In this document: in pieces, positions 1 through 38,580 of the stretch
Layout: every line of letters begins with the position of its first letter
Position numbering within the stretch: position 1 is the first letter of the stretch
NCBI GenBank assembly: GCA_021234535.1
Contig: CM037849.1
Location: forward strand, 15,888,274-15,952,273
Source of the DNA: Stichopus chloronotus
Lineage: Eukaryota > Echinodermata > Holothuroidea > Aspidochirotida > Stichopodidae
Direction of reading: 5' to 3'
DNA length: 64,000 nucleotides
Notes under the pieces: generated by a model
What the model saw: only the letters and a program-made list of their open reading frames with translations
Told to the model about the DNA's origin: nothing
The model's database searches: none
Translations under genes and position numbers: made by a program

Positions 1-469
1 TCTACATCTGAAAATAATGCAATAATGCAATAAAGACATTTCACCTTGTACTCATCAGCGCATTCATTCAAGCGTAGCCCTGGTTTTCTGCAAATGAATT
101 AACGTATGGGTGAATTGGGTTTTGTCGCTCAAGCCTAGAAAGCCTCTCAACAATTTCTCTCTGTCTTTGCTTATGTTGGTATGCCTTGAATTTGAATAGC
201 TAATAGAAGCAGATCAAATACTCCCATTGATACTCCCATTGTAGATTAGGATTACAATGAATGTATGAGCTAACAGTGTTGCGGAGTGTGTCCATAATAA
301 GACCAACATAAATTGGTTCTTCTAAAAGGGAAGTATTTAATTTCCACAGACTTATGCTCCACCTCTGCTTACCATGATTTGGAGGGTCAGTGATACAAAT
401 GAATGATCTAAACCGAATAGCGACAAATTAGAGCTTAATGTGTAAGTATGATTAGATTCAATAAAACGT

Positions 470-1360
470 CTAATCTACAATGAATGAAAGCATCAATATT
501 AGAATGCCACGCAAAGGAATTAGAATAAGGATTTCTTTCCCTCCAAATATCATTAAATCAATCCTACTTGTCCTAAACTTTGTTAGTGGAAGTCCACTAG
601 ATACTTCATGATCTAAGTTTAGTACCAGGTTAAAGTCTCTACCCCAAATGACAAAATTCCCATCGTGATGAGTAATATAATTATCAACATTAAAGTGAAT
701 AAGTTGGTCACGCTGCAACATACGTTAATTAACATAAGGTCCACAAAATACAAAAACACACCAGAAAATGACGACTGGCACGGGTCAATGGTTGCCTCTT
801 ACTAAGATCATCACTTGCTGATGTATAAAATTTTCTGTGTCGACTCCAGTCGCTTGGATAAAAATTATGAAGAAGGTTGATATGCAAAACCAAAGTATTA
901 ACTAGATGAATCTCTTAAATTTTCTGACGAAAATAGCAGTTTTGTACCTTGATTGTAAAGTTGGCTTACTTGTGAGCTTCAGTTCCTCTTTTCCAGTCGA
1001 TCTACTTTTGTCAGATCGTTGGATAGTAATGTATGGGTCTTTCTCGAGAGCTCGACGTTGAGATTTAAAGACCATCATTTTATCCTGGTATGCCATGGTG
1101 TGACCTGGTCTCTTGGGGTAAGCCCTTACATCTCGATGAGCTCGTTCAATTCTCACATATGTTACCCCAAGCTTTTTCAAAATGTTACCTTCTTCAGTGT
1201 CAGGGAACCCAACAATTCGAATGATGTTTCGTCTCGAAGACTGTTCCTGAACGTTGAGTTTGTCAGCATAATCAGAGTCAACTTTCTTCAGTTTTAACAG
1301 CACATCTTTCAGGGTTTTGAAGTATAACTGGATTTCGCTTTCCATGATTTTCGAGTTCAT
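470..1360 (-). mobile_element. L1-like LINE remnant, copy 1 (ORF1 and endonuclease start)
   Basis: On the minus strand, 1360-902 is an uninterrupted 152-codon frame like the RRM region of L1-type ORF1 proteins (EQSSRRNIIRIVGFPDTEE, then KKLGV, IERAHR, AYQDKMMVFKSQRRALE). It is followed at 721-470 by the start of an APE-type endonuclease (NFVIWGRDFNLVLNLDHEVSSG, compare the usual GGDFN motif). This ORF1-then-ORF2 order fits a LINE. The reverse transcriptase is missing and the endonuclease breaks off, so the element is dead. A near-identical copy lies at 32805-33633. The family match is from recognised motifs only. Confidence 0.7.
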
Positions 1361-3090
1361 CCGCTATTTTGAAATGAATTAAATTGCTTCATTAAAGTTG
1401 TTTTCCAGTGTCTTAAAAAAATTGTCATACAAACGTGAAAGACCTCTATCGTTATACTAAAATCATAGCTGAGATTTAACTGGTTGTATCTTCAACATCA
1501 GCTACCCGCATAAAGTAATGTGCTTATTAAATTTGTAATTGTCGACAATTTTTTGTGTTGGTGTTTATCTGTGTTACTTTTGGTGTTTATCTGTGACAAT
1601 TCAATTATAAACATATTTGTTTTACTGGAATTTGCATGATCGCAAAAGTGCTAACCACGTGACACGTGATTGCTGAAGTATCATTGTTTGATGAAGTCTT
1701 TGGTGACACCCTTCGGGAGTCTTCATTGGCAGGCGATCCTACGTCAAGAACCATTTTACTCGTTTCTGAACAGTTAGCGTCTTTCTCAACCATGGGAAGT
1801 TTTCAAGAAAGGCAAGTTTGGCCAAATTTTATGAAGAATTTTCTTTGGTGGATTTTTCTGGGATCTGAAATAGTAAGTCTAGTTTTCATATCGTCTATCG
1901 CAACGAATTATTCTAAATGTGAATAAATGGTAATAGTGCATTACTTTCTAAATTTTAAGATCATGATGAAGTATCATCAAATTTATGTTTTTTAATGACT
2001 AATTAAGTAATATAATGTAACAACCTCAAATCTGCGTATATTATTTTTTTATTATTATCATTAATTTCACATCCCCTTTCACAGTACTAAGATAAAAATT
2101 AATTAAACATTCTCTTTATCAGAAGAAATATCATAACGTTGCAAAATAAAATAAATCTTTAGTGCCAAAAATTCAACAATCAAGTATCATTTCATTGATC
2201 ATTGTCTTCAAACAGGCATAAACAGTCTGTTTAGTTTGTTTTGAAGAACTAAGAGAAAAATAAACGCTTAATGTAAGTGTGATTTATTGCAATTTAAGAG
2301 AAATGAACACATTATTGTTCAAAAGTTTGTCGTTACATTTCAACTAGGCCCAAGTTGACTTGAGAACCTTCAACACTTGTAACTATAACTCGCAACCTAT
2401 ATGAGTGCAAAAACAATATAAATTCCTTTTGACCTATAATGTTGGTAACTAAGAATTTACTATATATTGGAGGAATAATTACTGTGTAGTTACATTTACA
2501 TTATAAAACATCTTGCATAATGACAGTCACCCTTTGACCTTGTTCTGTTTTGCAAGTATAATATCTACTTACCAGGTTAATAAAACTGTATAAAAAGTTG
2601 TGAAGTTTAACTTTTATGATAAATGTTTCGCATAAACCACTACTTACTAGAAGTAAACTCACACTTTCAATCAGATTAGCATTCGGAACAACAGTGAACA
2701 ATCAAGACATAAGAAAGAAATTGTTTGTCGTTACTAGAGAGTTCAAAATAAATTTACCCATTAAAGACTTAATAAGCTCTTAAACCTCTCTCTAAAATGC
2801 TCTCCATTTATATCATTAGAACTTTAGGAAATAAATCATTTTCCATGAAGATTATATCCATTTCATTATTTTTATGACACTCACCTCATAACTGAATAGA
2901 TTATCTCCAATTTAATGTGTCTATGTACACAAAGTGCTGTTTAGAAAGCCAGTAAGTGTCTTCTCTATACATACATTTTATCTCAAAATCTACGTTATTA
3001 AGGTTGCTGCTACGTGATGTTATTAATTAGTTGTGTGTTAATTAGATTAAATGAGTAAGTTTGGGGATGTCCGTCTTCAAAACAAACTTA
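1160..3090. repeat. First copy of the direct repeat (partner of 5779-7855)
   Basis: Shares most of its length with 5779-7855 in the same orientation. It begins inside the L1 ORF1 remnant and ends in non-coding AT-rich DNA. The pair flanks relic D. Confidence 0.75.
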
Positions 3091-4985
3091 AAATGTAAAA
3101 TCATACACAAAAATGATCACATCTATAAGCATAACTGTTCACTCCTTCTTTGAATTTTGAAGATAGAATATTGGTTAGGATGTCTAATGATTGAATACGT
3201 TTAAACACCAAATGTACCTCACACTGCTCTTTTATTAAATCATTTTATTTTCACTGTCTTATAAAATGAATAGAAGGAATAGTTACAATAACTAGGGAAG
3301 ATAAATTCTATAAGTAGCGATCGATTTGGTTAAAAGCACATTTGCAACGTTTTATTAATGAAATGAAGGCTCTACTTGAACTGCCTGCCAATGCGCTCAT
3401 TTAATATACGATAAGGTTTTGAAATTGAAAGCAAAATGTTTTCATTTTGCAAAGCTGGTGCGTTCACAGGCGCCCAGAAAAGTGATGTATTGTTGGTTGA
3501 TGCAAAACATCAGTTGCATTACGTTATCATAATGCTGCATAAAAAAATCGTTACAACACATGATATTTATCGAACCAAATACTGATGATAGTCACTGAGG
3601 ACATCAATCGCACGTCATCATGTCGCACATTATACATTTTTCTTGCGCAGTTTTCGTCCCTGAAGATCCCGTGAAGTTGAATTTTTGTATATTGTTCTAC
3701 TGTAATTCTCATACAGAAATGTGGTAGTATTGTCAAGTTACGTTGCATTGGCAATTTGACAGTACTCAGTTCATGGTTGAAAACGTTGCGAAAATACTTC
3801 AAAATTACACAGCCCCAATCATAATATTTACTACATCTGGAAAAGATGTGCTATTTGCTAAATAGAGTTTGACAACTCGAGCAAGAAATGATCTTATCAA
3901 AAGCAAAAGCAAAATCTCAGTAGATGTGAAAGTACTAGGCCGTCTTCGAAATTAAGACATCACTAGGTATTTAAAAATTAAAGATGAAAAGCAACACGTT
4001 AATATAATCACATTTGAAAACCTCAATGTCAAAACTACAACAAGTAAAAAGTCTTTTACTCCATATGCTATGTCCAGTGCTTATTACTCTGGTTTGTTTC
4101 TGTTGTGAATACTTTCTTGAAACTGAAGTTATCGAATAGATTATTATGCCAAAACCCAATGGAGTTCGATCTTTATTTATATTTATTATAATACTGACTG
4201 TAACAAAATCCATTATAGATAATGCTTATTGGAAATCACTTTTCACGAATGAGACTTTTTCTCTAAAACATTTAAGGGTTATGAGCTTAACTTTCAGTAG
4301 TTTTCTGCCTTCCTTCAGATCAGCAAACGTCTCAGTCTCTCTATTATGCCAAGGTTTATTTCATTTGATGAAAGATGTCTTATGATATCGTTCATAGAAC
4401 GTGTAACATACATTTTAAATAGATCTTGCTACGCAGAAAAATTACAAGCATTCGATTGAGAAGAGGAAAACGGACTGCATTTGATGCATTCAACCATGCA
4501 GTAATGATCATACTTAATTTCTGTATGTTAATGTTACGTTAAATTGCAAGCGAAACAGAAGTCGTGGATAAAAGAAAGTTGATATTTCCTAAATTATCGT
4601 AAACCGTAAGACGTATGTTCAATTTTTAACGAAAAACTAAATCTTAATACAGTTTAAGCCAGTGTGATTTGTCTTTCTTCACAAAGACTCTTATCGCGAC
4701 CTCAAGCATGGCGTCAGGTGAGTGGGCATTAGAAAGTTAGCGTTAAGAATGAAAATACTCGTGTAAGAGTATATTAGTGAAGTTGTGCAGCGTGTCATGT
4801 CACGTCAGTGCCCTCTGAAAAAGTTACTGTGTAGAGGCTTAGTACAGCAGACATGTATCCAATATTTGTATCTCAGCATAAGAAGGACTTCAAAAAGAAG
4901 GACTTAAATGAACTTTGCTATGAATGTTATGGAGTTATGTGAAGTGTTTATTAAGATAGTGTAGTATATTGCATTTCCCTAACAG
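3091..4985. other. Non-coding stretch before relic D
   Basis: AT-rich sequence without a recognisable domain. Two possible starts (4146 hydrophobic frame; 4708 short ATG before gtgagt) could be lost first exons of relic D, but neither is supported. Confidence 0.4.
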
Positions 4986-5589
4986 TCTCATCCTATTTTC
5001 TATGGCAACAAGTTGAGTATCCGAGAGATTGTAAAGAAGTACTGATGAGCTGTGAGTTCTTAAATAATACATCTGGAGTGTACATTATTAAACCCGAAGG
5101 ATATCCAGAGCCTTTTGAGGTTTATTGTGACAAAGACCTAGAAACCAGTGGATGGACAGTAAGTATTGTTGTGTTCCATAAATCTCATTCGATATGTTAT
5201 ACATCTTATCTTACAAGAACACTTACGTTTAACTGGAGATTTGATCTTACAAGCAAGAAACATTTATAAGCAAGAAGGGAAGATTATTTGTTTTGTTTTA
5301 ATATCAGACACATTTACTCTGCAGGTATTACAACGACGGTTTACTGGATCTATCAATTTTAATCGAAATTGGGTAGACTTCAAAAACGGATTTGGATATC
5401 TTGGAACACATTTTTGGCTAGGAAATGATAAAATAGCTTTCTTGACTAATCAAAAGCAGTATGAGCTACGACTGGAATTTCAGAATGCTGCAGGGAAGTC
5501 TTATTACATAACTTACCACAACTTCAGAATCTCAGACGAATAAGGAGAGTATTCACTGTCAAGTCTGAAATCTTACAGAGGAACAGGAG
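4986..5589 (+). pseudogene. Relic D: two FREP exons (N-terminal half FReD) with a nonsense codon
   Basis: Exon-3-like 4986-5158 has the same 173-nt length and phase as gene A exon 3 (VEYPRDCKEV, GVYIIKPEGYPEPFEVYC, SGWT then gtaagt). Exon-4-like 5325-5589 follows an acceptor tttactctgcag and reads VLQRRFTGSINFNRNW, GTHFWLGNDKIAFLTNQKQ, then FRISDE followed by an in-frame TAA at 5541-5543 where A and B have Trp. After the stop the frame continues as GEYSLSSL to a phase-1 end. No signal-peptide exon or downstream exons were recognised; an L1-like repeat begins at about 5779. It is most likely a truncated duplicate that lost function recently, since only one disabling change is visible. It could instead be a short truncated isoform of an unseen gene, which is less likely. 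Confidence 0.75.
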
Positions 5590-5778
5590 GTACCTGTGGA
5601 ATACGTTACTTTACGGTTTATTAAGATCATCCTCTAGAATACTTTAGTTAGATTTGTATCAGGTGTTCAGTTTTTCTGTATGAGTGTAAACTGTCTAGTT
5701 TCCTGAACGTATTGTTATCATTATATGTGCAATGGTCCCGTTGATACTGTAAGTTTCACTTTTTCTGTAATTCGTTAT

Positions 5779-7855
5779 TTATGTTACCCCAAGCTTTTTC
5801 AAAATGTTACCTTCTTCAGTGTCAGGGAACCCAACAATTGGAATGATGTTTCGTCTCAAAACTGTTCCTGAACGTTGAGTTTGTCAGCATAATCAGAGTC
5901 AACTTTCTTCAGTTTTAACAGCACATCTTTCAGGGTTTTGAAGTATAACTGGATTTCGCTTTCCATGATTTTCGAGTTCATCCGCTATTTTGAAATGAAT
6001 TAAATTGCTTCATTAAAGTTGTTTTCCAGTGCCTTAAAAAATCGTCATAGAAACGTGAAAGATCTCTATCGTTACAGTAAAATCATAGCTGAGATTAACT
6101 CGTTGTATCTTCAACATAAGCTACCCTCATAAAGGAATGTGTTTATTAAATTTGTAATTGTCGACAATTTTTGTGTGTTGTTGTTCATCTGTGTTATTTT
6201 TGGTGTTTATCTGTGAACATTCAATTCTAAACATATTTGTTTTACTGGCATCTCCATGATAGCAAAAGTGTTTACCACGTGACACATGATTGCTGAAGTA
6301 TCATTGTTTGATGGAATTTTAAGTTTCATCAGAGTCTTATAACTACTTTCATTCTGATAACTCTGATGTACTTGCCAATTAATATTTGAATGTCTTGTTA
6401 GTTAAGATGAATATAGGCGCGTCCTACCTTGAACAAACTCAATCTTTGGTGAAACCCTTCGGGGGTCTTCATTAGCAGGCAATCCTTCGTCAAGAACCAC
6501 TATACTCGTTTCTGAAAAGCGTCTTTCCCAAAGATGGAAGTCTTCAAGAAAGGCAAGTTTGGAAAAATTTTATGACGAATTTTCTTTGGTGGATTTTTCT
6601 GAGATCTATAGTTAGTCTTCTTATCAGACCGTCTATTGCAACGACTTACTCTAAATGCAAAAATAATGAAGGATAAAGTTCTTGCATTACTTTCTAAATT
6701 TTCAGATCATCAAATGTATGTTTTTTGATGAAGAATTAATTAAAATAATGTGACAATCTCAAACATGCTTATAATAAATATTGTTATTTATTATTATTAA
6801 TTTCACATCCTCTTTCACAGTACTAAGATAAATATCAATTAAAAATTCCCGTTATCAGAAGAAATATTATAACGATGCGAAACAAAATAAATCTTTACTG
6901 GCAAAAGTCACCAATCAAATACCCTTTTATTGAATATTGTCTTCACACACAGACATATACAGGAGATAACTTTTAATTTGTATAGTTTGAACTGAAGAAC
7001 TAAAAAAAAAATTAAACGCACACTGTTAGTGTGATTCCTTGCGATTTAAACGAAATGAACACATTGTTGGTCCAAAATTTGTAGTGAACTTTCAACTAAA
7101 CCCAAGTTGAACTGAGAACCTTCAACACTTGTAATTATGACTTGCAACCTATATGAGCTCAAAAACAATATAAGTTATTATTGACTTATAATTTCGGTAA
7201 CTAAGAATTTACTATATATTAGAGGAATATTTGCCTTGTAGGCATTATAAAACATCTTGAACAAAGATATGCATTATTTAACCTTGCTATGTTTTGTAAG
7301 TATAATAACTACTTATCAGTATAATCAAATTTTTAGCACACCGCGTAAGACAGTCAATCCCACGTCATGAATGAGCGAGGGCTTTGAAGTTTAACATTTA
7401 TGATAAATGCTTTTCTTGAACCGTTACTTATTAGAGGAAAACTCACGCTTTCATAGAGATTGGCTTACGGAACAACAGTGAACAATCAAGAAATGACAAC
7501 GAACTTGCTTGTCGGTACTAGAGAGTTCAAAATAAATTCACCGATTAAAGACGTAATAAGCTCTTAAACATCTCTTTCAATTGCACACCGGTTACATTAT
7601 TAAAATTTTTGGAAATGAATTATTATACATGAAGATATATCCATTTCATTATTTTAGAACACTCACTTTAATGCGTCTATATATACAAACTGCTGTTAGT
7701 AAGCCCGTGTCTTCTCTATAGATACATTTTATTTTAGAATCTATATACGTTATTAAGGTTGCTGCGAAGTGATGTTATAAAATAGTTGTGTCTTAATTAG
7801 ATTTAGTGAGTGAGTTTGTTGATGTCCCCTTTCAACATAAAGTTAATCAAATCAA
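5779..7855 (-). repeat. Second copy of the 1160-3090 segment (direct repeat with broken L1 ORF1)
   Basis: The sequence from tatgttaccccaagc at 5779 follows that at about 1158 through to aaggttgctgc (7757; 3001 in copy 1). The ORF1 part is cut at its C-terminal side and carries a 1-base deletion near 5858. It differs by an insertion of about 130 bp at 6311-6441 and one of about 55 bp near 7325-7375. Because the copy extends far beyond the LINE, it is a segmental duplicate and not a separate retrotransposition. Confidence 0.75.
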
Positions 7856-7867
7856 AAGTATATCAAA

Positions 7868-10800
7868 TTATCCGTGACGTCATGAGGTTTTGAATGCTAC
7901 GGTAATGAAATAAAACAGGTGATTTCTCAAGCATATTAACTCAACATTTAGAAACTATTAAAGAATTACAATCATGAAAGTTATTTGTTAAAACATACAA
8001 CATATTATTGATGACCACTTCGGTGTGCAGGGATGTGTAAAAGTAGGAAATTGACTCTTCTTATGAAACGGCTATAAATGTGTTTCCAACAGACTTTGTA
8101 ACATCACTTAGTTATTAGGCAAAATAAAGGGAAATTTGTTGTTATCTCCGTTCCACTGTATTGTATCAGTTTTGTTCCCTTAAATTTCGTAAATGAGTCA
8201 GGTACTCAGCCAATGCAAGACTCAGTTCCGTCCCCATACACACGTGCACCTCAATAAAATAACAGCGTCTCTTCCATTGCGTTTGTCTTTTTAAATATCG
8301 TACATGAGACCTAAAATATCTTTCATTTCCAAAGAGATGCTAGATCAAAGTGTCCACCTACCTTGCTATAATGGAACAGAGAAAGTCTCATTTTGCATCA
8401 TTTAACAAACCGTTGTCCATTACTTGCCAGTCTAGTTCCGCGACATGCATTCGATGAGACTGTCCAGTTTAGGCGAGGATTTAAATGAATGGGTTACGTC
8501 ACCGAATTAACTCAGTGGTTGCTAATAAACTGTACAGTAATCTCTGAAAGTTTAAAAGTGGATGTGTTTTCGTTGAATTATGGTAGCTATTATGTCTTTA
8601 TTTAACATTATTCCAATTACGTTACCGATCTGGAGCCAGGAAATACGGTAGGTGATATTCCACGGTCCTCTTTCATGTGATATGTAATACCGAATTAATT
8701 TATATGGAGCCCACAATTTGCTTACTTTGTCTTTAGAGTGTCATATCTTGATCCGACATACAACGCTAGTTATCTGCCCCTATAACAAACATCGAGTTAG
8801 CTGATACATGAGTGAATGAAGTGACTTTGAGCTGAAGGGTATCAAATCTGAGGGATTTTCGAAAACCAAGTGTGTCGAAAATGAAAGTACAGTGTCAGAA
8901 AATCTGATTGGCTTATCGAATTGTCAGAAGTTTTATACGTTATAGAAAATGTCAATCTGTAATGTATGCAAGACATAACTCTGAGCATCAAGAATCTATC
9001 TGCATGTGACAATAGGCAAAGTGTGTAATGTACAATCCTTGTTTTAAGCCCATCAATTCCAATGGACTGGTACATTTTGCAATCGGGGGATTGGTTCTGT
9101 TCCTTGTAATCAAAAAGGGTGAGGGGGTTACACGAAAAAAAAAAAAAAACAGAGCCATATAAACACAGATTTATGTCACACGAAGCACATTTGAACAAAT
9201 TACATGGAAAAAGTATCTTAGATTGTCCATAGCATGACCACATAACAACAAACTAAAAAAAAAACAAAAAAAAAATGTTGAAAATGTTAGCTGATGTGTC
9301 AGCAGTTGCATGATATAATAATGACGACAAAATAATGCCATCCATAATATTATAAAAGTATGATTGCTGATCTGACTTTACAACTAGGGAGTCTTCACTT
9401 AAGCGATATATAAATAATAGATTTTCTAGAAAATAAGAAGTATCACGTTCTGTAGTGGACACATTCTTACATTCCCGTTTCTTGTCTATGGGTTAATTTT
9501 ACAAAAGCCAGCCTAACTTAGATCGAAAATAATGTATTGCAAAGTTGCAGGATCAAAGGGACTAAATTGCTGGTCTGGCGGACGGGTACAGTGCCAACAT
9601 GCTGGAATAATGACGAGAAAATAGTGACCAAAATATGTTTGCTGAAGTACTCTTCTTTCTCAGTTATGGAAAGAAGATACATGGAGAGATTCACGGAAAA
9701 ATCGGAAAAAAATAAATTCAATGAATAACTAAACATTACAGAACAATCACGTCATAAAGAACAAAGAGACGTGAACCTATCTGCCTTCAAACAAAAGTAA
9801 ATTGCAATTACTGACACTGTTCATGTGGTTCATACATCCGTATTTTCTGTATTAATCCAATCTGATCTTTTTATAAAGAATCAATGACACAGGAGTCTCT
9901 TATATTTATCTCTGACAGTTTCTGGGATAATTGTTGCAATTCGCCGCTAAACAGTATTTGAATGCCATGTGTTGTAGGGCTGTACATGTTAGCTGGATTT
10001 AAACATCAGTATTTATTCACAAAAGGCTCGACGGTTATGTGTATTTTACTAACAAAAAGGAAGGAAGTATTAATTGTGCGATCAATATTTGATTTGAGGC
10101 AATTTAAGCAATTCTGAAGGTTAATTTGGCAAGTTTGTTTTCAGCTACGTTACCTATGTATGAAAAAGTCCTGAAAAGCTACCCCATACAACAATTGGTT
10201 TGTGTCAACGGCTTGTGTAATCACTAATCTAACAATACAGTGCAATGGGTTTACAGAGAACAAGTGTGTTCTCGCAATTGATTTCCATTTTCGTGGTAAA
10301 TAACTCCAATTAGGTATTAACAAATGAGTTCACCAAGACAGATGTGAGTATTTAGTTCGGTAAAACAATAAAACAATTTGCACATACAACAAAAAAGATC
10401 GAACTTCATCTTAAAAAAAACCCAGCGTATTCAATACAATAGAAACAAAGCTCAATGTGTCCATGTGTAGACTTAGTATAATATGACGCCCTTGCCTGAA
10501 CTTCTTACCCAACGTATTCATTTATAGTTAATTTTTGTCACTCGAAAAAAAAAAAAAAATTCCAGTGACAGCTAAAAGTTCTGTTTTCTGCAATTGAATA
10601 TCCACCGTTGTCTAGGCTTACAGCAGATGTTCATACTTGACCAAGAATATTGTACACCTTTGATTACCTACACATATTAAGATGAACACATACTGACAGA
10701 TTTAATTAGGACAGTCACAGATTGTGTATCCACTTCTAATATTCATCACCTGTCTGGTGTGCAAAACATACCACTAGACAAATACGTCATACAATATATC

Positions 10801-11346
10801 AGCATATTATATTTTGATATAGTATAGTGTATACCATAAGATACATAACCTGAAACTGCAACAATATTTTGAGGTGTGTAATTCAATGCATGTTCTTTTT
10901 ATTCCCTGTTGATTGTATTTTCTTTTTGTGGAGTGCGATTTTATTTAACCAAAAATAGTTTTATTTATTGTGCTAATTACTCGAGATTGACTAATATACC
11001 TCTTTCAGGATATAATTGCTGTATCATACTGACGTAAAGCATTTTGTGTAGCTCATTTCGTAATTCCATCAATCCTAAATACAACAGTTTCAATATAGTA
11101 TAAAGAAAATGGTTAGTATTCTTCGCATGATACCATGAATCTAATGATATAAATGTTAACGAAGTAGGTATTACTTCGCATATAGAGTACGTGTGGATTT
11201 TGACTATTGACAGTCTGTTTCAACAGCGCAAGAGCTTCTTCTGTTGGTTTGGACAGGCCATTTAAACGTTGATGTGATTTTTTACGGAAGCCCATTTGAA
11301 ACGTTAAAGTATGACGCGTGGGATGTGAATATTAAAATAGTTCTCA
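7868..11346. other. Upstream region of gene A (non-coding)
   Basis: Closely matches 34848-38575 upstream of gene B. It has poly-A/T runs (for example 9136-9150) and no protein domain. Minus-strand frames near 8842-9462 are also open in unit B but resemble nothing I know. Confidence 0.5.
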
Positions 11347-11350
11347 ACAT

Positions 11351-11419
11351 CACGTGATCAAGACAAGTCTAACTATTTTGCAAGTGATGTGCTTGGACTG
11401 CCATCGGTAATGTCACGTG
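11351..11419. promoter_or_regulatory. Pair of CACGTG E-boxes upstream of gene A
   Basis: Perfect CACGTG palindromes lie at 11351-11356 and 11414-11419, about 220 and 155 bp before the ATG. The same pair with the same 63-bp spacing occurs upstream of gene B. They could bind bHLH factors. They may lie in a 5' UTR intron, because an acceptor-like ttccattttcag directly precedes the ATG. Confidence 0.3.
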
Positions 11420-11546
11420 GCCGATCATTAAATGAAGACAGACGTCGAGTTCAAGCAATGGCAGCAAAAATAAATTTATTCGTCATCACTTTGTCGAAAA
11501 GTAAGAGTCGCCAAAGCTTCAAAGAAGTTAAGCCAAAACTTCTTCA

Positions 11547-11572
11547 CTTTGTCCTTTGTTCCATTTTCAGAA
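11547..11572 (+). other. Acceptor-like site immediately before the start codon (gene A; also B and C)
   Basis: A pyrimidine tract plus CAG ends two bases before the ATG in all three genes (A ttccattttcag, B the same at 38789-38800, C cctcctctttgcag ending at 60462). This suggests a spliced non-coding first exon upstream that I cannot locate. It supports the chosen ATG, which lies in the same place in all three. Confidence 0.5.
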
Positions 11573-14500
11573 ATGGCCGAACTTGCAAAGTCTTGTTACA
11601 TTTTTCCTGCTGTATTATTTTTGGTTTCTTTTGGACGTGAGGTAAGTCTGTTTGAAATATTTATCAGGAAAAAATACTTACAAAGAAAGAAACGACTTTT
11701 AATGGTTTTGAAATTTCAAAGACAAACATAAAGACAATTTCAAGACATGACAGACTTATTTCTTTTTTTTTTCTACATGTTACACGTTAAAATAATATTT
11801 TTTGATATTCTTTTGCTTCTACTTGATTTTAAGTATTTTTAAAAGGCTATTGATATTAGTCAAAGAATGTTGTTACAATGTACTGCATTTGATTTCTTTA
11901 CATTTGCACAGCTATGCATGTACAAACCTTTCAACAGTTGTTCATAGGAAAGACATGAGCATACTGAAATAACATTAAAAAACTAAAGGCAAACTTTCAC
12001 ACTTTGACATAATCTCTAACATTTTAAGTTCATTCTCGATGCTGATGGTAACCCCCTTTGTAGAAGCTCATGTTCAGTCATGCAAATAGTTACATGAAAT
12101 TGAAAAGATTTGCCTTAGTATTATTAACAACCAATAATTCTGCAGACTTAGTTTACTGCTGTATTGGAAAAAATATCGTTGTAAGAAAATACCAACTTGG
12201 AAAGTGGATTCTAACATAGTTCGTCCCGAACAGAAATGCAAACTTTAAAAATACAAATTTCATTTAGTTGTAGTAAGTTCAGTGACAAAAGCAAATTTTG
12301 TAAACGATATACGTATTGATATGCATCTAAATATTATTGATACCTTTTCTCAAGTTGAATCATTTAAATACATTTCCTTGAGTTTGCTTGCGTCTTTCTT
12401 TTTGATAGGTGTATTCAAAGAAAACAAAAACAATTGATCATGCTAGTTTTCCTTACAGCATGACACGCAAAGGTACAAGCTGTAGGTAAAAGAATTCTAA
12501 ATATATTTTTCCTTAAATAATTATGTACTGATGAAAGAATTCCCTTAGTATTATGAGCAACACAACATTATTAGAAGTCGGTTTCCTTGATATTACTACA
12601 ATAAAAGAAATAAAAAAAGGAAAAATAAAATAAGATCAAAGAAAAAGATAGGTAACAAAATACAAGCTGGTACAAGTTTGTAACATAGTTTGTATTTACG
12701 TGGAAGGCAGCTGGGAACATCATTTTGTTCATTTTAGTTGTGTGAAATAGTTTGACCAAAACCGTCAGTAAACATTTTGAAAACAAAACCTCTGTCTGAT
12801 ACAAGATATTGAGACTTTTGATATTCAGCTAAGGCCTTATCAAGTTAGGATAGCTAGACGTTTTGTAAGAAAAATTGTAACGTAAGAAATGAGTTGTTAA
12901 TTGTGATCACTTCACGAATGTATTCACAGAGTAATGCATTCACTTAATCTGAAAAACGTTTTGTAACCTCTGTACATTAAAAAAAATCTCTTCAGTGTAT
13001 CAAATTCGATTAAAATAATTTTGGAATTGGGAGTTAGATTCAAAATGGCATCCAACAATCTTTTGATAAAAAAAACGATCTTTTTCAAAGCACCCTACAA
13101 CAAGGCGAAACATTTTTATCATGTTTATTTTCCGCATCAGAATATTCACTTCGTCTGTTGAAATCTTATTTCGAAGCGACAATATTTTTGTTATTATTAT
13201 TCTCACATTTATCTTGTCTGTCTGTTTTTCAAAGTGAAAAAAAAAAATCATTCACTTTTGTTAAAATAATTATCGAGTTCTCGTTAGGTAAAAATGTCTG
13301 CCAAAAGCGATACAGAGAAAGAATGTAAACTTGGTACACATAAACAAATCGTAGTTATCTCAAGAAAGAAGTTTTTTGACTCTAGGAACACAACATATTC
13401 TGGTAAACAATCTTGGTTAAGATAGACAATGTTAAATTTGAAAGTTGTAAGAGTTACGAAAAAGATTAATAATTAAATGGAAGAGAAGCAAAATAAAATG
13501 CATACTAACAATTTAAGTGTTAATGAATCCATTCCTCTTGAGTCACAGTCAGTTCTTGAAAACCCTTAAAGTGACATTTTTATATATTATTTTGTATCAA
13601 AGTCAATTTTCGTCTCTATTTTCCTCCTAAACTTTCAGTGAAATTGAAACTAAACATTTCACTATGAAAGTGACAATTATACCATGTTTTTTTTCTTCTG
13701 TATATATCTGTAGGGTAGTTGGGATCTCCTAACAATAACGAGTAATGAGGATTGCGTCCAACAGGCAGCTTCCCTAACTAATGCCAATTTTTTTGTGGGC
13801 CAATGTTTAGCATGAGCGTGTTTAGCATGTGCAAAGACTGTATGTGTATTTGTAATTGTAAAGTATTAGCTTTAATTAGAATAGGCAGCAAAAGGCGATT
13901 TATCGCCAGAGAAAAGTCATTTAACTCTGGGCAGCTCCTATTGTGGTCATAAAGTAATGTAATACTTCCACTTGAGACAACCATAAATCGTACTAAAAGT
14001 GATGTTTAACAACAGAAAACTATAAAACAATGGCTAGAGAAATTTTGAACATGATCAATTTCTTAAATAAAACGATGGCTAGAGAAATTTTGAACATGAT
14101 TAATTTCTTAAATAGAGATTGCGAACACACTGCGGTTCAGCAAAGGACATACACGATTTGCACAGTGTTGACTGCACATGATTTCACTTCATTTTAACAA
14201 ATTGTTAGCGTGAACATTTTGTGACAACTAACCACTTACTAAGATTTTGCCCTTGGAATAGTTTCGCTTTAACCTATACAATATTTACATAATCAAAACA
14301 AAATTCTTGAAGTTGTGAGGATCAAGACACGTACAGACGACTCAAAATGCAACATGTAACCTTATATCATGTGGACATCAATTTGCATTTAAAATATGAT
14401 AGGTCACTGTAAAGATTTACTTATGTCAACAACAAAGGCTTAAGCTTTGTACTGACTAAAGAGTATGGGGAAAAGAAGTTTTGGTAGAATTGCAGTTAAT

Positions 14501-17500
14501 TTAAGGTTTTTTTTTTGTAGTTTCAGCTTATAACGAGTCTTTGATGCAACTTTACAGATCTCTGAACTTGTAATGTCACAATTCTTTAAGAAAACTACGT
14601 TTTCCTTGATCCAATTATTCAAAAGAAAAAAGTGCATTAAGTTATTTGGTAACATTTTTTTTTGTTTAATATTTACAATTCACAATAGCATGAAATCTAA
14701 GTGACAACTGTACGTGCTTTACATTTCGATAAAAATCGTCCCTCACGATTTCATTGTGCGTTTGTGTAACTAAGCCAGAAAGAAATGCTTTACTTTAAAT
14801 ACCACCTTAACCGTCACACTTTAATTTTTGACGCTGTGGGATACATATTCAAAATGAATCTGCGAAAGTGCTTTCATGGTTTCATGAAATTCCAGATAAG
14901 TAAGTAACAAAAACAAAAGAGAAAATTGTTATTGAAGAAATGCTCGAATTAGTAAAATATTAAAACTAGATAAGAAGGATACATCTGGTACACGTATATG
15001 CAAACGTATGTGAATTGTTGTGGGAAAATCGACTTATAATTATTGTTTTTCACATTCAGGTAATCTCCGCTAATGAAGACGATATTCAATCACCATCCAG
15101 TGAGTTTAAATTATGTTTTAAGTCTTGTATACAAACATATGCAATGTATCCGGTAATATATTCCTTAGAAGTTCGTTTTCTTACATACGTTTGGGTTTTT
15201 TTTCTATATACCAAATTGTGTTTTGATAAAAGTTGTCACATAATTAAAAATCTTTACATTATGAGGTAAATATCACAGAACTATCGAATTAAAGTACGTT
15301 ATTGTTCTCGTCTATAGAAAGTAATGAAGTAGTTACTTTATTTGTTCGTATAATTAGATATTCGGTATTTTCTGTACCAATCTGCGGAGTACCCACGTGA
15401 CTGTCAAGAAGTGGTCAATCAATGCTCATCTGACAAATCTGTCTCGGGGGTTTACCTCATCAGACCTGTCCAGTATCCAGAACCTTTTGAGGTCTATTGT
15501 GATAACAACGTCACCTTAGGCGGATGGACAGTAAGTTACATATTACACTAAAATAAAGCCTACAGAATGAAATGTACATAATTTATTAATTTTAGAAAAA
15601 GAGAGAACCCCTTTTCTTTCTTACCTACTACATATTATTCGTAATTGTTTTCTTATTGTTCAGGTAATACAACGGCGCTTCGATGGATATATTAATTTTA
15701 ATCGGAGCTGGAACGATTTCAAATTCGGGTTTGGATTTGTGGGAAGTGAATTTTGGATGGGAAATGAAAGACTGGCTCATTTGACAAACCAAAAGAGATA
15801 CAAACTTCGCATTGATCTGGAGAACACTGAAGGACAGTCGTATTACATTGCCTATGACAATTTTCGTATCGCAGATGAGTGGGACAGCTATTCATTATCA
15901 AGTCTTGGCTCTAACGAAAGTTCTGGTAAATAGTAACATTTGTATGGAAACGCCAGTTAATGTCGTCCCATTTTCTTCACCAAGAATAACAATATCTTAT
16001 TACACCTCATAAACTACGTCCACGATTACCTGTCCATTTATTAATTTAAAGTTAATGTCTCGTGTTTGGAAATTTGAACGTAATGTATATTTACTTTTTT
16101 CTGGAATTTCAGATCTACCAATCACTTGGTGTGTTACAAACAAGCATAAAGACAGCCAAAGTATTTGCGAGAGAAGTTGTGAAAATCCAGATCAATGTGT
16201 TCCAGCAAATCCTTCAGAACCAGAAAGATGTGTTTGTGAGGGAAACTACATGGCACATGATGGTAGCTGCATACCAAAGGAGCAGTGTGGGTGTTATGAC
16301 CAAGATAACGATGTGGTAGTAGGGGTACGTTTCAATATGTCATCCAGGCTTATCCTTTCTATATTATATTCGTTTATGTCATTAATAATGAGTCTCTTCC
16401 ATTGAAATTGTTTCCAGGAAGGTGATTCTCTTCTTAAGTCTAGATGTTCGGTACGGATTACCTGTAGCAACAACAGACTCATCAGTGATAATTACAGATG
16501 TGGGGATGACGCAACTTGTGAGGAAACTGACGGTGTCGGGAGATGTATCTGTAACGAGTGGTTTCAAGGAGACGGTGTTACATGTACGCGGAATGGGCCA
16601 AGAGATTGCTACGATCTATACATGGCTAAGAGAAGAATCGACATGACGTACACAATATATCCTGAAGGAAGCTCGGGCTTTGACGTTTATTGTGATATGT
16701 CAGATGGTGGATGGACGGTAAGTTTGAGGTTACCACAGTTAAACATAACATCTATTTTGAACTCTAATTTAATTGAATACTATATTTAACATGTGATATG
16801 ATTGATTTTGTCGTTACGACATGGCTTCGCAAAAAAGTCTCGTTCTGTTACCAAGAACTCACGCTGGATATGGTTTAATTTTGTGTAAACCAAAGTTAAA
16901 TTAATAGCATTTCGACTGTCTCCTCTGGCAGGCAAGAAAAAAAAAAATGTCTGTATGGTGTCATACATACACCTATTAAGAAACAACTTAAAACTATAAT
17001 TGTTCACAAAACCCTGTCATGTTTTTATTTTACATAAACGCAAACCTTCGGTATGTACATGTTAACGGTTAAAATTAGAAAATCTGTAAGTCGTAGAAGT
17101 TCTGACAAGTGGTTGTCTCTGCACTGATTAACTTGCATTATTCAACATTTGCGTTCATTTTCTTTTTAGATTTTGCAAAAACGAACCACTGGGTCCCTTA
17201 ACTTTTATCGTAACTGGGACGAGTACAAGACTGGTTTTGGAAATTCTAATGGAGACCACTGGCTAGGAAATGAAAAGATGCACATACTCACCAAACAGAA
17301 AACATACAAACTAAGAATGGAGAAGACCGATGGAGGGAACTCTCAACGTTACACAGAGTACTCGCATTTCGAAATTGGTAGCGTGGACCAAAAATACGAG
17401 CTTTTGTCTCTGGGTACCTACAGTGGGAACTCTGGTTTGTATTCTAGATTACTTGATTCTTTTTTCGTCCAATATTGAAGTTGCTGTAACACTTCAGAGT

Positions 17501-19031
17501 ATAGGCTTTATTCTGACGTTCAACACGAAATGATGTCTGCAGTGTATTGTATTGATGCATACTGCATTTCAACCCAGTGATCTCGTAACTTAAAAAATGT
17601 AAGATCCTCCTGAGTAGTTTTGGGTAAGCTGATTTTGATTGTTATTCATATTTTTAAGGCTGGACTGGTGATGCGTCTCTCAAACATCATAGTCATCTAG
17701 GAAAGTACCTAAACCAGCGCATTTCTTTAATTCAGTTTATCAGAAATGTACGCAAGGACTGCATTTGGAGAACGATAAAATGAAAGAAAGGGAATTTATA
17801 AAATCCTAATAATATTAAGACGTGATTAGTTTACACAGAGTGTATCATTGACTACTTTACTATTTTGTTTTCATCAGTCTACCCAAGTGTTTTTTTTTTT
17901 TTTTGGTGGATTTATTTATTAGGTTACATGATGGGTCCATCTAATAGCTTACATCATTCTTGCCTTTTATTAACATTAGGTATTTTCCTGGATATTTTCA
18001 ACCGGCATACTAGACATTTGTTACATCTAACTAGACAAAAATAATATGCTATGATCAAAAACAAAATAAAAGACAATTCCTCAGCAAAGGACACACGTGC
18101 AAAGTAAAATGAAAACTTCAAAAACGAAAATGAAGAAAAAGATTTCAGTAACATGAATTCCTCACTACATGAAATGTGAAAAAAAAACGAAAGGGAAATT
18201 AACTTGTTAAAACCGAATATAAAAAAGATCTACAAATAAACAGAAGACAATAAATGCACAGACAAACTAAACTGGAAACTTCAAAGAAATAGATTTCGAA
18301 TCCAAGATATCAATATATCAAACGTGGAAAAACAGGACACTGTGGTAAGCATGATAATAACAATTGCAAAGACAAAGAAAAAATACATTAAAAAATCACT
18401 CAATATGTATGAAGACATGAAGAAAATTGAAACATAGACATCTTGTTGTCATATAATTTTGGCAGGTAACGATGCTATGGCAGCAAGTGTAGGGGCCCAG
18501 TTTAGTACGCATAACGAAGACAATGACGGATCGAGTACCTTCAACTGCGCACAAAAACACCGAGGTGGATGGTGGTTTCCAGACGACAGTAGCACAGGCA
18601 CTACTGAACAATGCTACACATTCAGCAACAGTGTAGCTACTGGCCGTTACGAGACTCAGCACTCTGACTGTGGCTGCTATTACTGTTGTTCCTGTAGTGG
18701 TGGTTGTTATTATTATTGTCATTATTACTATTGCTATTGTTATCATTATTATTGTTATTACTATTATTATTATTATAGTTGTAACAGTCGTCCACATCAC
18801 AAATGCACTAATTGTGACGGATGTTCTGGTAGTAACAACTATAGATGCTGCCGTAACGAGAACCAAGTTGAGATCGTCGAAACAAATTTCTATTTTTGTG
18901 GCGATTCAAATCTAAATGGTGACTATCAGTACAATGATTACCGAGGCATATTCTGGAAGAATCTTCAAGGATCTGATTGCGGTATCACAGCAACAACAAT
19001 GAAAATACATCCAGTATTATCATTAACATAA
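11573..19031 (+). CDS. Gene A: secreted FREP with half-FReD, TIL, EGF and FReD with Tyr/Cys-rich insertion
   Basis: Eight exons: 11573-11641, 15060-15099, 15358-15530, 15664-15925, 16113-16324, 16418-16717, 17170-17434, 18466-19031. All introns are GT-AG and phases close (69, 40, 173, 262, 212, 300, 265 and 566 nt; 1887 nt, 628 aa). Residues 1-23 start with a hydrophobic signal peptide (YIFPAVLFLVSF). Residues about 48-182 are the N-terminal half of a fibrinogen C-terminal domain (VYLIRPVQYPEPFEVYCD, GGWT/VIQRRFDG). Residues 188-240 are a Cys-rich TIL-like module and 268-308 an EGF-like module (GDDATCEETDGVGRC). Residues 316-628 are a second FReD with near-canonical calcium loop (FSTHNEDND), NCA...GGWW, SNLNG and a terminal TTMKIHP. 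A Tyr/Cys-rich segment (509-571) splits its last disulfide loop. The exon 7 donor (gtttgt) is weak. A secreted recognition or adhesive role is inferred from the domain family; the exact function is unknown. The exon structure is strongly supported by gene B. Confidence 0.88.
11642..15059 (+). other. Intron 1 of gene A
   Basis: 3418 bp, gtaagt donor and cattcag acceptor. Matches intron 1 of gene B (38872-42195, 3324 bp) along its length. No nested gene seen. Confidence 0.7.
14030..14114. repeat. 45-bp tandem duplication in intron 1 of gene A
   Basis: atggctagagaaattttgaa...ttcttaaata occurs at 14030 and again at 14075; gene B has it once near 41210. Confidence 0.85.
18669..18857 (+). repeat. 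Coding TAT/TGT trinucleotide tract: Tyr/Cys-rich FReD insertion of gene A
   Basis: The 63 codons encode residues 509-571, of which 20 are Tyr and 16 Cys, including a run of seven Tyr. The DNA is an interrupted TAT, TGT and TAC array, read in the one frame that gives Tyr/Cys instead of Ile/Val or Asn. The flanks TGTTEQCYTFS and CTNCDGCSGS are shared with gene B. In a typical FReD the segment between GGWW(Y/F) and the Cys before SNLNG is only a few residues. Here it spans about 107 residues (478-584). Confidence 0.9.
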
Positions 19032-19354
19032 GAAACTGAAGGGAATCGGGAATCAGAAACTTCTAAACAACATAAAACTCTTTTATATCTTGAAATGTTC
19101 TACATCAAATTGAATAGATAAAAAGCTGTGAATACAAATTTGTTTGCATAATTCGGTCATTATTGTGTATGCTTTACTTCAGACAGCTTATAAATCAACG
19201 GTCAACCAACCACATGAATCAACCAACCGTCTTTTCATTGACCTGTCATCACGTTTCCGCCAATATATAAGTATTTCATGCTACAGTGACAATAGCAATG
19301 CAATCTTACATAGTAGTTTCATTTTGGTAATAACCATTGCAATCTTGACGAAAA

Positions 19355-25084: not shown

Positions 25085-25600
25085 CACATCACAGATGGCT
25101 GGGATAACTATGCATTATCCATTATTTGTTTTAATAATAAAACTTCAGGTAACATTCAATGCATAATTAAAGAATGTGAAAATTCAAATACTTGTGCTCC
25201 ATCAATTATTTTCGAACCGGAAAGATGATTCTACCAGGGAACTACATGATGCACAAAGATATCTGCAAACCCATGGAGCCTCGAAGCTGTTATGACCAAG
25301 ATAAGAATGTCGTGCTTGAAAGCTTTATTTTGTCAATTTAATTCATCTATACGAGGGGTATAGCTCAATTATTTGATTGCCATGTTCATTCGTCTCCTCA
25401 GGAAAGTGTATCATTCCTGAACATGGGCTGTTCCATACAAACTACTTGCAGCAATAACGTATTCATCACTGACGGTTACAAATGTAGATAGGACACAACT
25501 TGTGAAACGACTGGTGCTGTCAATAGATTAAGTCTAATGAGTCGTGTACAAGAAATGGACCACCACGGATTGCCATAGCGAAATTGAAATGGACAGTAGG
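25085..25600 (+). pseudogene. Relic E: decayed FREP exons 4 (tail), 5 (TIL) and 6 (EGF)
   Basis: The end of exon 4 is recognisable at about 25090-25125 (DGWDNYALS, compare DEWDSYSLS in gene A). An exon-5-like TIL piece follows acceptor ttcag at 25149-25322 (KECENSNTCAPS, QGNYMMHKDICKP, CYDQDKNVV) with a frameshift after EPER. An exon-6-like EGF piece starts at 25402 after ctcctcag (TTCSNNVFITDGYKC, then a stop, DTTCETTGAVN, further stops). No exon 7 or 8 match was found downstream to 26 kb. Order and spacing match genes A and B, so this is a degraded gene copy and not a processed one. It is clearly non-functional. Confidence 0.7.
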
Positions 25601-32249: not shown

Positions 32250-32804
32250 TCTACATCTGAAAATAATGCAATGATAACATTTCACCTTGTACTCATCAGC
32301 GCATTCATTCAAGCGTAGCCCTGGTTTTCTGCAAATGAAATAACGTATGGGTGAATTAGGTTTTGTCGCTCAAGCCTAGAAAGCCTCTCAACAATTCCTC
32401 TGTGTCTTTGCTTATGTTGGTATGCCTTGGATTTGAATAGCTAATAGAAGCAGATCAAATACTCCCATAGAGACTCCCATTGTAGACTAGGATTACAATG
32501 AATGTATGAGCTAACAGTGTTGCTGAGTGTGTCCATAATAAGACCAACATAAATTGGTTCTTCTAAAAGGGAAGTATTCAGTTTTCACAGACTTATGCTC
32601 CACCTCTGCTTACCATGATTTGGAGGGTCAGTGATACAAATGAATGATCTAAACCGAATAGCGACAAATTAGAGCTTAATGTGTAAGTATCTTTTAAATG
32701 ATTAGATTCTATAAAAAGTATAATCTACAATGAATTAAGGCATCACTATTAGAATGCCCTGCAAAGGAATTAGAATAAGGATTTCTTTCCCTCAAAATAT
32801 CGAT

Positions 32805-33633
32805 TTAATCATGATGAGTCATAATGTCAATCCTACGGGCCCTAAAATTTGTTTGTGGAAGTCCACTAGGTACTTCATGATATAAGTTCAATACCAGGTT
32901 AAAGTCTCTACCCCAAATGACAAAATTCGCTTCATGATGAGTAATATAATTATCAACGTTAAAGTGGATAAGTTGGTCACGCTGCAACATACGTTAACTA
33001 ACATAAGGTCCACAAAATACAAAAACACACCAGAAAATGACGGCTGGCTCGGGTGAATGGTTCCCTCTTACTAGGATCATCACTTGCTGATGTATAAAAT
33101 TAGGTTTTCTGTGTCGACTCCAGTCGCTTCTATAAAAAATATGAAGAAGGTTGATATGCAAAAGAAAGTGTGAACTAGATGAATCTCTCAAATTTCCTGA
33201 CGAATATATCAGTTTTGTACTTTGATTGTAAAGTTGGCTTACTTGTGAGCTTCATTTCTTCTTTTCCAGTCGATCTACTTTTGTCAGATCGTTGGATAGT
33301 AATGTATGGGTCTTTGTCGAGAGCTCGACGTTGAGATTTAAAGACCATCATTTTATCCTGGTATGCCATGGTGTGACCTGGTCTCTTGGGGTAAGCCCTT
33401 ACATCTCGATGAGCTCGTTCAATTTTCACATATGTTACCCCAAGTTTTTTCAAAATGTTACCTTCTTCAGTGTCAGGGAACCCAACAATTCGAATGATGT
33501 TTCGTCTCGAAGACTGTTCCTGAACGTTGAGTTCGTCAGCATAATCAGAGTCAACTTTCTTCAATTTTAACAGCACATCTTTCAGGGTTTTGAAGTATAA
33601 CTGGATTTCGCTTTTCATGATTTTCGAGTTCAT
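32805..33633 (-). mobile_element. L1-like LINE remnant, copy 2 in unit B
   Basis: The minus-strand frame at 33633-33175 (152 codons) matches the copy-1 ORF1 with only scattered substitutions and no stop. The endonuclease start follows at 32990-32805 (NFVIWGRDFNLVLNLYHEVPSG). It was duplicated with the surrounding unit and did not insert independently, because the flanks also match. Confidence 0.7.
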
Positions 33634-33955
33634 CCGCTATTTTGAAATGAATTAAATTGCTTCATTAAAGTTGTTTTCCAGTGTCTTACAAAATCGTCAT
33701 AGAAACGTGAAAGGTCTCTATCGTTATACTAAAATCATAGCTGAGATTAACTCGTTGTATCTTCAACATAAGCTACCCGCATAAAGTAATGTGTTTATTA
33801 AATTTGTAATTGTCGATAATTTTTGTGTGTTGGTGTTCATCTGTGTTATTTTTGGTGTTTATCTGTGACAATTCAATTGTAAACATATTTGTTTTACTGG
33901 CATCCCCATGATCTCAAAAGTGTTGACCACGTGAGACGTGATTGCCGAAGTGACC

Positions 33956-34847
33956 AGTGAAAAAACACACACACCCATCGAAGTTCCATCATTTTGTTCG
34001 GTTCTCAATTTTCCTGCCTCCAGTTTAAATACTAAGCATTAGTACGATTTAACTTTAAACTACCTTGAAAAAAACATTTCTGTTTCATGTAGATAATCCC
34101 CCCCCCCCAAAAAAAATGTCGCAATCTAAGTAGCGTGGAGACCTTACGTAAGGAATCCGAAACGAAAATTAATAATTGTTGGTTAAAAAATATTTCAGCG
34201 ATACTCCAAAAAGGAAAAGTAAACGTTGATTTGAGAGTTCCGTTACTACTAATTCCACTTCACGTGGTTTAAGGGGTACACGCAGCGAAATGTTTTGGTC
34301 TGTTTTTCCGAGGCATTTTTTGTATATGAGTACGCATATAATTGTAATTATTTTCTTAAGTCCAATGTAAGACTTAATCATGTCTAATGAACTTTGCTTC
34401 GGAGGAATTTTTTTTCGTATTTAATCATTGGGACCAGCTTTATACCCCAATTGTGGAGGATCACTGACGTTATTAAATTTCAGGTGATAATCACGCGCCA
34501 CGCACACCTTCAGGTAGCTACACACTGTTCACCTTTTTTGGTGTACAAATTATCTAAATCAGTAAGTTAAGTGTGGGTAATCCATGTCCACATTACTAGA
34601 GATGAGTACAATTATACCATTGTATTACAGGTTTTCACATCAATACGCCAAAACCTGCCGCAACTATGGACGAGTCACTTATGACGACAAATTGGCTTTG
34701 CATTTGACCCAAAATGTGAAGGGATCGAAGTGCGATGATTGCTGATAGTTTGCTTTTTGAAACATTCACCATTGATACTCTAGTAGTTACACAGTCTATG
34801 TGCAACCACACTGAAAGAGCTTCTTTCTCGTACATTTTATGGCATGA
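33956..34847. other. Unit-B-specific block
   Basis: Replaces about 6.2 kb of unit A between the LINE remnant and the gene upstream region. It contains a C-run (about 34099-34108). A 66-codon minus-strand frame at 34835-34635 has no recognised domain. Confidence 0.5.
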
Positions 34848-37800: not shown

Positions 37801-38040
37801 TATAGTATAGTGTATACCGTAAGATACATAAACTGAAACTGCAACAATATTTTGAGGTGTGTAATTCAATGCATGTTTTTTTTTGCCTGTTGATTGTATT
37901 TTTTTCTGTGGAATGCGATTTTATTTAACCAAAAATAGTTTTATTTACTCTGTTAACTACTCGAGATTGACCAATATGCCTCTTTCAGGATATAATTGCT
38001 GTATCATACTGATGTAAAGCATTTTGTGTAGCTCAGTTCG

Positions 38041-38528
38041 TAATGCCATCAATCCTAAATACAACAATTTCGATATCGTATAAAGAAAATGGTTAGTATT
38101 CTTGGTATGATACCATGCATCTAATGATATAAATGTTAACGAAGTAGGAATTACTTCGCATATGGAGTACGTGTGGATTTTGCAAAGTCTATTGACAGTC
38201 TGTTTCAACAGCGCAAGAGATTCTGTTAGTTTGGACAGGCAATTCAAAAGTTGATGTGATTTTTAACGGATGCCCATTTGCGTGGTAATTCCATCAATCC
38301 TAAATACAACAGTTTCGATATAGTATAAAGAAAATGGCTAGTATTCTTGGCATGATACCATGAATCTAATGATATAAATGTTAACGAAGTAGGTATTACT
38401 TCCCATATAGAGTACGTGTGGATTTTGCAAAGTCTATTGACAGTCTGTTTCAACAGCGTAAGAGCTTCTTCTGTTGGTTTGGACAGGCCATTTAAAAGTT
38501 GATGTGATTTTTAACGGAAGCCCATTTG
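38041..38528. repeat. Tandem duplication of about 245 bp upstream of gene B
   Basis: 38041-38285 and 38286-38528 repeat ccatcaatcctaaatacaac through gatgtgatttttaacgga and cccatttg. Unit A has a single copy (about 11061-11295). It ends about 275 bp before the gene B start codon. Confidence 0.88.
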
Positions 38529-38580
38529 CGACATTAAAGTATGACGCGTGGGATGTGAATATTAAAATAGTTCTCAACAT

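Follow-up and report, generated by a model that had tools for sequence, protein, structure and literature searches.

A tyrosine- and cysteine-rich insert in the disulfide loop of a holothurian fibrinogen-domain family: conserved frames, a hypervariable centre and a possible role as a stapled recognition loop

The window analysed here, a stretch of 64,000 nucleotides from the holothurian Stichopus chloronotus, carries two related genes, A and B, with fibrinogen domains (FReDs), as well as a further, degenerate copy of their last exon. The product of gene A begins with a partial first FReD, continues with cysteine-rich modules and ends with a second FReD, whose last exon, exon 8, contains a long Tyr/Cys-rich insert. 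The features of gene A, several of them defined by alignment with the A. japonicus protein P0001, are as follows.

15060 to 15099, plus strand: gene A exon, N-terminal linker (splice sites, phase)
15358 to 15530, plus strand: gene A exon, start of the first FReD (splice sites, phase, alignment with P0001)
15664 to 15925, plus strand: gene A exon, middle of the first FReD, without a C-terminal subdomain after it (splice sites, phase, alignment)
16113 to 16324, plus strand: gene A exon, cysteine-rich TIL-like module (aligns with P0001; no Pfam match of its own)
16418 to 16717, plus strand: gene A exon encoding a TILa/EGF-like module and then the beginning of the second FReD (splice sites, phase, alignment with P0001)
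17170 to 17434, plus strand: gene A exon 7, middle of the second FReD (splice sites, phase, alignment)
18466 to 19031, plus strand: gene A exon 8, which completes the second FReD and contains the insert; stop codon at 19029-19031 (open frame, splice site)
18576 to 18671, plus strand: gene A insert, left frame FPDDSSTGTTEQCYTFSNSVATGRYETQHSDC (paralogue comparison; pN/pS of left frames 0.33)
18672 to 18800, plus strand: gene A insert, hypervariable Tyr/Cys centre of 43 residues (paralogue comparison)
18801 to 18896, plus strand: gene A insert, right frame KCTNCDGCSG..RCCRNENQVEIVETNFYF (paralogue comparison; pN/pS of right frames 0.46)

All seven gene A exons read in phase between GT/AG splice sites and encode 605 residues without the signal-peptide exon, for which a search of the upstream DNA gave no convincing candidate. 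P0001, which is 62% identical to gene A over the 468 residues before the centre, has a hydrophobic, signal-like stretch at its N-terminus. Against PF00147, whose cut-off is 22, the spliced gene reaches 271 bits, which places it among the FReD proteins; the FReD is the only Pfam match of the gene model, from which the signal exon is missing, and exon 8 by itself matches nothing in Pfam. The first FReD ends short of the C-terminal subdomain. As for the cysteine-rich modules that follow it, they are named here after the TILa and EGF_3 matches of P0001, since gene A itself yields neither.

Exon 8 is open over its whole length (18466-19031), and its junction with exon 7 keeps the phase, the donor being GT and the acceptor AG. 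A preliminary description of this DNA had put about 107 residues between GGWWF and CGDSNLNG, with a 63-residue core of 20 Tyr and 16 Cys. Measured from GGWW to the Cys of CGDSNLNG, the distance is exactly 107 residues (321 nt), and a recount of the richest 63-residue stretch returned the same 20 Tyr and 16 Cys. The location then given to the insert, within the disulfide loop of the FReD, agrees with its position in the sequence: the Cys pair of the NCA and C..NLNG motifs and the DxDND stretch are both present by alignment, the bond itself being predicted. In insert-free FReDs, the gap between WW and C amounts to 3-4 residues.

The remaining copies in the window are these.

42196 to 44518, plus strand: gene B exons before the last, at 42196-42235, 42491-42663, 42797-43058, ~43247-43461, 43554-43853 and 44254-44518
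45584 to 46098, plus strand: last exon of gene B, intact, with an insert of 92 residues (45694-45969) and a centre of 32 residues (45784-45879)
about 53828 to 54358, plus strand: third exon copy, degenerate, with stops and a frame change

The end of the fourth exon of gene B was placed by homology only, because joining by motif failed there. The window therefore contains two intact insert-bearing exon copies (starting at 18466 and 45584) and a degenerate one (~53828-54358). Genes A and B derive from a tandem duplication (~27-32 kb), in which window positions 1-19138 align with 32250-46209. Up to position 16762, identity in its longer aligned stretches is 92-96%, compared with 82% and 76% for the stretches of exons 7 and 8, and either upstream conversion or fast 3' evolution might have caused this drop at the 3' end. 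Elsewhere in the window, lone pieces of FReD and TIL/EGF exons, interrupted by stops and perhaps left over from further family members, lie at 4955-5591 and 25127-25527. A broken retrotransposon-like stretch, possibly DIRS-like, occupies 47387-49207 on the minus strand, with a reverse transcriptase match (PF00078) barely above the cut-off and a tyrosine-recombinase-like frame (PF00589) below it. The first-FReD exons of another family gene are found at 63270-63993 and continue past the window edge, and beyond the window end lies an insert-bearing exon containing a stop (L066, C21:15957131).

Long Tyr/Cys loops, first described from gene A, turned up well beyond it when they were sought elsewhere, and are thus no peculiarity of this gene: they occur in at least 58 exons of the genome and in proteins of A. 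japonicus. The 719-Mb genome contains at least 163 FReD matches. The insert-bearing exons were located by a search with gene A exon 8, after which the loci were fetched (two of these, L062 and L067, had no usable exon pair), and an exon was counted when its GGWW-to-Cys gap reached at least 64 residues. This gap is divisible by three in 48 of the 58 exons and out of frame in the other 10. Thirty-eight exons, 37 of them distinct, are open, that is, without interruption over the insert, the 38 residues preceding it and the 40 following it, and their inserts measure 77-158 residues; this count includes L035, whose reading is shifted in the flanks and the right frame and which may be degenerate. 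L042, identical to L041, and L039, nearly identical to L038, were dropped, so that the comparisons below rest on 37 or 36 copies. An AG precedes exon 8 in all 38 open copies, and the exon-7 donor, found by pattern in 28 of them, is GT in every case. Some insert-bearing copies lie on small contigs and may represent other haplotypes of chromosomal copies. At one extreme, L063 (C1:277000-280800) is an open exon whose 158-residue insert is made of CHYY repeats and long Tyr runs, and the same locus has a 308-base ATT/ATC repeat outside the exon. In another FReD subfamily, L075 (C3:36770000-36773400) bears an insert of 54 residues composed of almost perfect CYYYY repeats, which looks like a separate Tyr/Cys expansion of the same loop.

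Among the matches listed, nine A. japonicus proteins carry the insert, matching 98-99% of the queried FReD2 region at 56-61% identity, and both of its frames are common to twelve A. japonicus gene models (P0001-P0008, P0010, P0168, P0170 and P0217). These sequences are database gene models annotated as uncharacterized or ficolin-like. Their frames are as in S. chloronotus, whereas their centres differ, and some of them have a second variable Tyr/Cys stretch downstream of CDGC. Other FReDs of this genome, of A. japonicus and of H. leucospilota have shorter inserts, about 22-54 residues long and often containing Tyr and Cys; two Holothuria leucospilota proteins, P0180 and P0182, have Tyr-rich inserts of 44-45 residues with 3-4 Cys, intermediate between the short and the long ones. 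Of the measurable inserts longer than 15 residues among the 120 matches listed, those assigned to a species belong to A. japonicus or H. leucospilota. The long insert is absent from each of the sea-star (P0013, P0048) and brittle-star (P0054, P0106) proteins inspected. Two further candidates, P0069 and P0118, were rejected as long-insert proteins, their match spanning two FReDs. The literature searched, which left most subscription papers out of reach, yielded no description of the insert. Judged from these comparisons of sequence, the insert is a holothurian family trait rather than an oddity of one gene and, with 58 or more exons, gaps that are mostly in frame and its sharing with A. japonicus, it is more than a chance repeat.

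The open copies all divide into three parts. A left frame (consensus YPDDSSTGTTExCYSFSNR.ATGRYEYSDC) is followed by a centre of 17-98 residues, encoded by a TAT/TGT trinucleotide repeat, and by a right frame (consensus KCxNCDGCSG....RxCRNKxxIYETxxYS). Pooled over 282 of 666 pairs, with unequal-length pairs skipped for each segment, pN/pS comes to 0.33 for both the N-terminal flank and the left frame, to 0.46 for the right frame and to 0.31 for the C-terminal flank; the frames are under purifying selection and are kept much like the FReD itself. The centre, on the other hand, is hypervariable. In the 53 of 630 pairs whose frame DNA differs by less than 10%, the median protein difference is 29% in the centres and 6.5% in the frames, and 12 of these 53 pairs have centres of equal length. 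L014 and L016 illustrate this contrast, their frame DNA being identical and their centres 9% apart. Three copies out of 36 may be mosaics; L025 and L028, for example, are 1% apart on the left side of the centre and 21% apart on its right.

The main rival of the stapled-loop reading given below is itself considered unlikely; it holds that a passive TAT repeat has grown in a tolerant surface loop, where Tyr and Cys are merely what TAT and TGT encode and are merely put up with. Such repeats are indeed at hand, as twelve TAT arrays lie in nearby non-exon DNA; the long repeats in the insert of the open copy L063 and the 10 of 58 inserts that are out of frame would fit passive growth as well. Within the YRY codons of the centres, C is moreover about as frequent at position 1 as at position 3 (108 versus 104), which suggests no constraint on Tyr. 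Passive growth accounts less readily for the conservation of both frames and their occurrence in A. japonicus, and it is weakened further by the rules that the cysteines follow. TGY makes up 18.8% of the centre codons compared with 5.7% of the units in the noncoding arrays, and G stands at the middle position in 26% and 6.9%, respectively, the control (12 TAT arrays, 547 units, in non-exon DNA nearby) being rough and biased because a repeat finder selected its arrays, whose repeats are purer than those of the centres. Of 211 intervals between successive centre cysteines, 144 measure 3-6 residues, where shuffling gives a mean of 82 and none of 2000 shuffles reached the observed value, even though block duplication of codons could account partly for this regularity. 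In view of these patterns, Cys looks like a component of the centre that is under selection.

The cysteine totals point the same way. The total of exon 8 is even in 29 of the 37 distinct copies and odd in eight (even in 28 of 36 when L035 is left out), and single-linkage clustering of the copies at a frame difference of 10% yields 16 mostly even clusters, three mostly odd ones and one tie. Even totals are also found in 11 of 12 A. japonicus long-insert proteins, a count that leaves out P0014, P0121, P0127 and P0183, whose sequence ends within the insert, and equally in P0219; P0069 and P0118 were excluded from these parity counts. Evenness alone, though, shows only that cysteines pair, because most insert-free FReDs (57 of 64) and most short-insert ones (49 of 60) have even totals as well. 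More telling is that the parity of the centre cysteines equals that of the other exon cysteines in 28 of 36 copies (Fisher p 0.0014; when each cluster is represented by a single member drawn at random, the median p is 0.004-0.010). All these parity counts are weakened by the relatedness of the copies, which makes them not independent. Since the two parities track each other, the centre cysteines are probably paired within the domain. Among the FReDs displayed, a C-terminal Cys of the DCGI type is present in all five insert-bearing and in none of the seven insert-free ones. Among the chemistries that the preliminary description had offered for the insert, the disulfide knot is the only one favoured by the data, through the parity, spacing and enrichment of Cys in the sequences.

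According to a second alternative, which appears less probable still, the protein would be a matrix or regeneration factor, whose loop would serve self-assembly or bind extracellular matrix while wounds close and tissue regrows, and would recognize nothing foreign. The accessible part of PMC5638244 reports that, in A. japonicus, both mRNA and protein of tandem FREP genes increase during the early and middle stages of visceral regeneration, which would fit a tissue-building role, and that same part gives no word on which members carry the insert. A matrix partner would nonetheless be expected to demand a conserved loop, yet the centre is the most variable part.

What the tyrosines contribute is less clear, and the evidence for their selective maintenance is mixed. 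Of the 1364 centre codons of the 37 copies, 47% encode Tyr and 19% Cys. His codons (CAY) are scarcer in the centres (5.6%) than in the noncoding TAT arrays (10.8%), a shortage that weakly suggests some constraint on Tyr, while the frequency of C at position 1 given above suggests none, and Tyr may largely be the default output of an in-frame TAT repeat. P0219 has the same frames around a Tyr-poor insert, whose 83 residues include nine Tyr and nine Cys, and the insert of P0217 has 10 Tyr in 77. Some holothurians produce adhesive secretions, and an adhesive or cross-linking domain, in which Tyr would form DOPA or dityrosine and Cys would form cysteinyl-DOPA or bind metal, would make use of the high Tyr and Cys content and might favour Tyr over His; it is, however, the weakest option on the present evidence and a very improbable one, given the even Cys totals, which argue against free thiols, the parity association, position-1 changes that are not depleted within centres, the low-Tyr inserts of P0219 and P0217, and a searched literature that gave no link between an insert-bearing FReD and adhesion. 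The dityrosine, DOPA and metal-binding roles first suggested for the insert thus found little or no support, with Tyr evidence that is mixed, P0219 poor in Tyr and Cys totals mostly even, and the proposed change of the FReD from a recognition domain into an adhesive or cross-linking one fares poorly for the same mixed Tyr evidence.

Structure prediction, suggested earlier as a check on gene A, was run instead on its homologue P0010, where it bore out the FReD core and gave no confident shape to the centre. In the AlphaFold2 model, most of the core has pLDDT above 90 and the centre falls below 50, being enclosed by strands 260-266 and 325-331 in a block with pLDDT of about 50-60. A Foldseek search with this model returned FIBCD1 (4m7f) as the best match, with a TM score of 0.89 by target length, followed by angiopoietin-like, tenascin and ficolin domains; a second structure model, with a mean pLDDT of 54, was left unused. 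We take the His after the loop Cys (CHxxNLNG) and the Tyr after WW to have roles in the pocket of acetyl-binding FReD lectins. The insert would accordingly sit beside the ligand pocket, because it is located between GGWW and C..NLNG. The Tyr after WW is present in 36 of the 38 open copies and is replaced by Phe in gene A, and CG stands in place of the CH of FIBCD1 and ficolins in every open copy. From the sequence, it is unlikely that the classical acetyl site works unchanged here.

The reading that we prefer, with moderate confidence, is that the insert may be a germline-diversified, disulfide-stapled recognition loop carried on a FReD, similar to the bovine ultralong CDR H3. Gene A would belong to a large holothurian family with the architecture partial FReD, TIL/TILa/EGF-type modules and FReD, in which the short loop of the second FReD would have become a cysteine-scaffolded mini-domain made of two kept frames and a hypervariable centre. 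The TAT/TGT repeat of the centre would readily change its length, and new loops, many of them still in frame, would arise from this variation. Selection would retain Cys codons at a spacing of 3-6 residues and favour even totals, making pairing possible, while Tyr would occupy much of the remaining centre and provide a generally sticky binding surface. With many gene copies bearing different loops, many different stapled loops would be displayed, and microbes or other variable targets in the body fluids could be recognized. The sequences themselves show the anatomy of the insert, the size of the family, the constraint on the frames, the hypervariability of the centre and the Cys rules. We infer the disulfides, a stalk-and-knob shape, the secretion of the gene A product and the recognition function. 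A more specific version, which we hold only tentatively, would make this system the holothurian counterpart of the cow ultralong loop: a secreted FReD presenting a stapled knob on its binding face, in dozens of copies diversified by slippage of the TAT/TGT repeat and by exchange among the copies, and directed against varied microbial targets. A many-copy FReD whose binding face bears a variable, stapled loop would most likely serve to recognize varied targets.

Published data on holothurian FREPs in general, none of them about the insert in the text available, offer some context for such a recognition loop. FREPs are present in the coelomic fluid, according to the accessible text of PMC12119288. 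In H. glaberrima, one of seven FREP ESTs is described as LPS-induced in the intestine in the part available of PMC2702171; the corresponding portion of PMC4264123 gives a 2.58-fold LPS induction at 4 h for a coelomocyte FREP of A. japonicus, with none stated for H. glaberrima. A FREP-type family is also reported, in the accessible part of PMC5638244, as the most expanded one in the A. japonicus genome. Were the stapled-loop reading true, an animal without rearranging receptors would turn a simple trinucleotide repeat into a whole set of stapled loops, keeping a Cys book-keeping that resembles the one reported for cow antibodies. Part of that most expanded gene family (PMC5638244) would then have a testable function, and disulfide-rich binders would gain a new natural scaffold.

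Among known systems, the closest in fold are FReD lectins of vertebrates and invertebrates, such as the ficolins, FIBCD1 and tachylectin-5A, which likewise have the core NCA...GGWW...C..NLNG and the D-x-D-N-D stretch, and whose fold is common with the predicted model of the homologue P0010. Ordinary FReD lectins nevertheless have a gap of 3-4 residues where the open copies here have 77-158, and CH after the loop where all 38 open copies have CG, although some insert-free FReDs also have no His there. The C-terminal Cys of the insert-bearing FReDs is another difference from lectins of the ficolin/FIBCD1 type.

The FREPs of molluscs combine an N-terminal immunoglobulin-like domain with a FReD. 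No immunoglobulin domain is present among the Pfam matches of gene A, P0001, P0012 and P0017, and, contrary to the mollusc proteins, the variation here sits in a loop of the FReD. Mollusc FREPs are a large, diversified FReD family of recognition proteins, as described in the available part of PMC13428168.

The bovine ultralong CDR H3, with its segment IGHD8-2, belongs to an unrelated fold and is likewise derived from a hypervariable, Tyr/Cys-rich coding repeat; the stapling is what we infer for the holothurian loop, and the diversity, here seen in one assembly, lies among germline gene copies. In the accessible part of PMC7366855, 84% of bovine heavy-chain V regions are reported to have an even Cys total, an odd Cys being matched elsewhere in the domain. 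The Cys-parity rule of the holothurian insert is of the same kind, with odd totals in eight of 37 copies.
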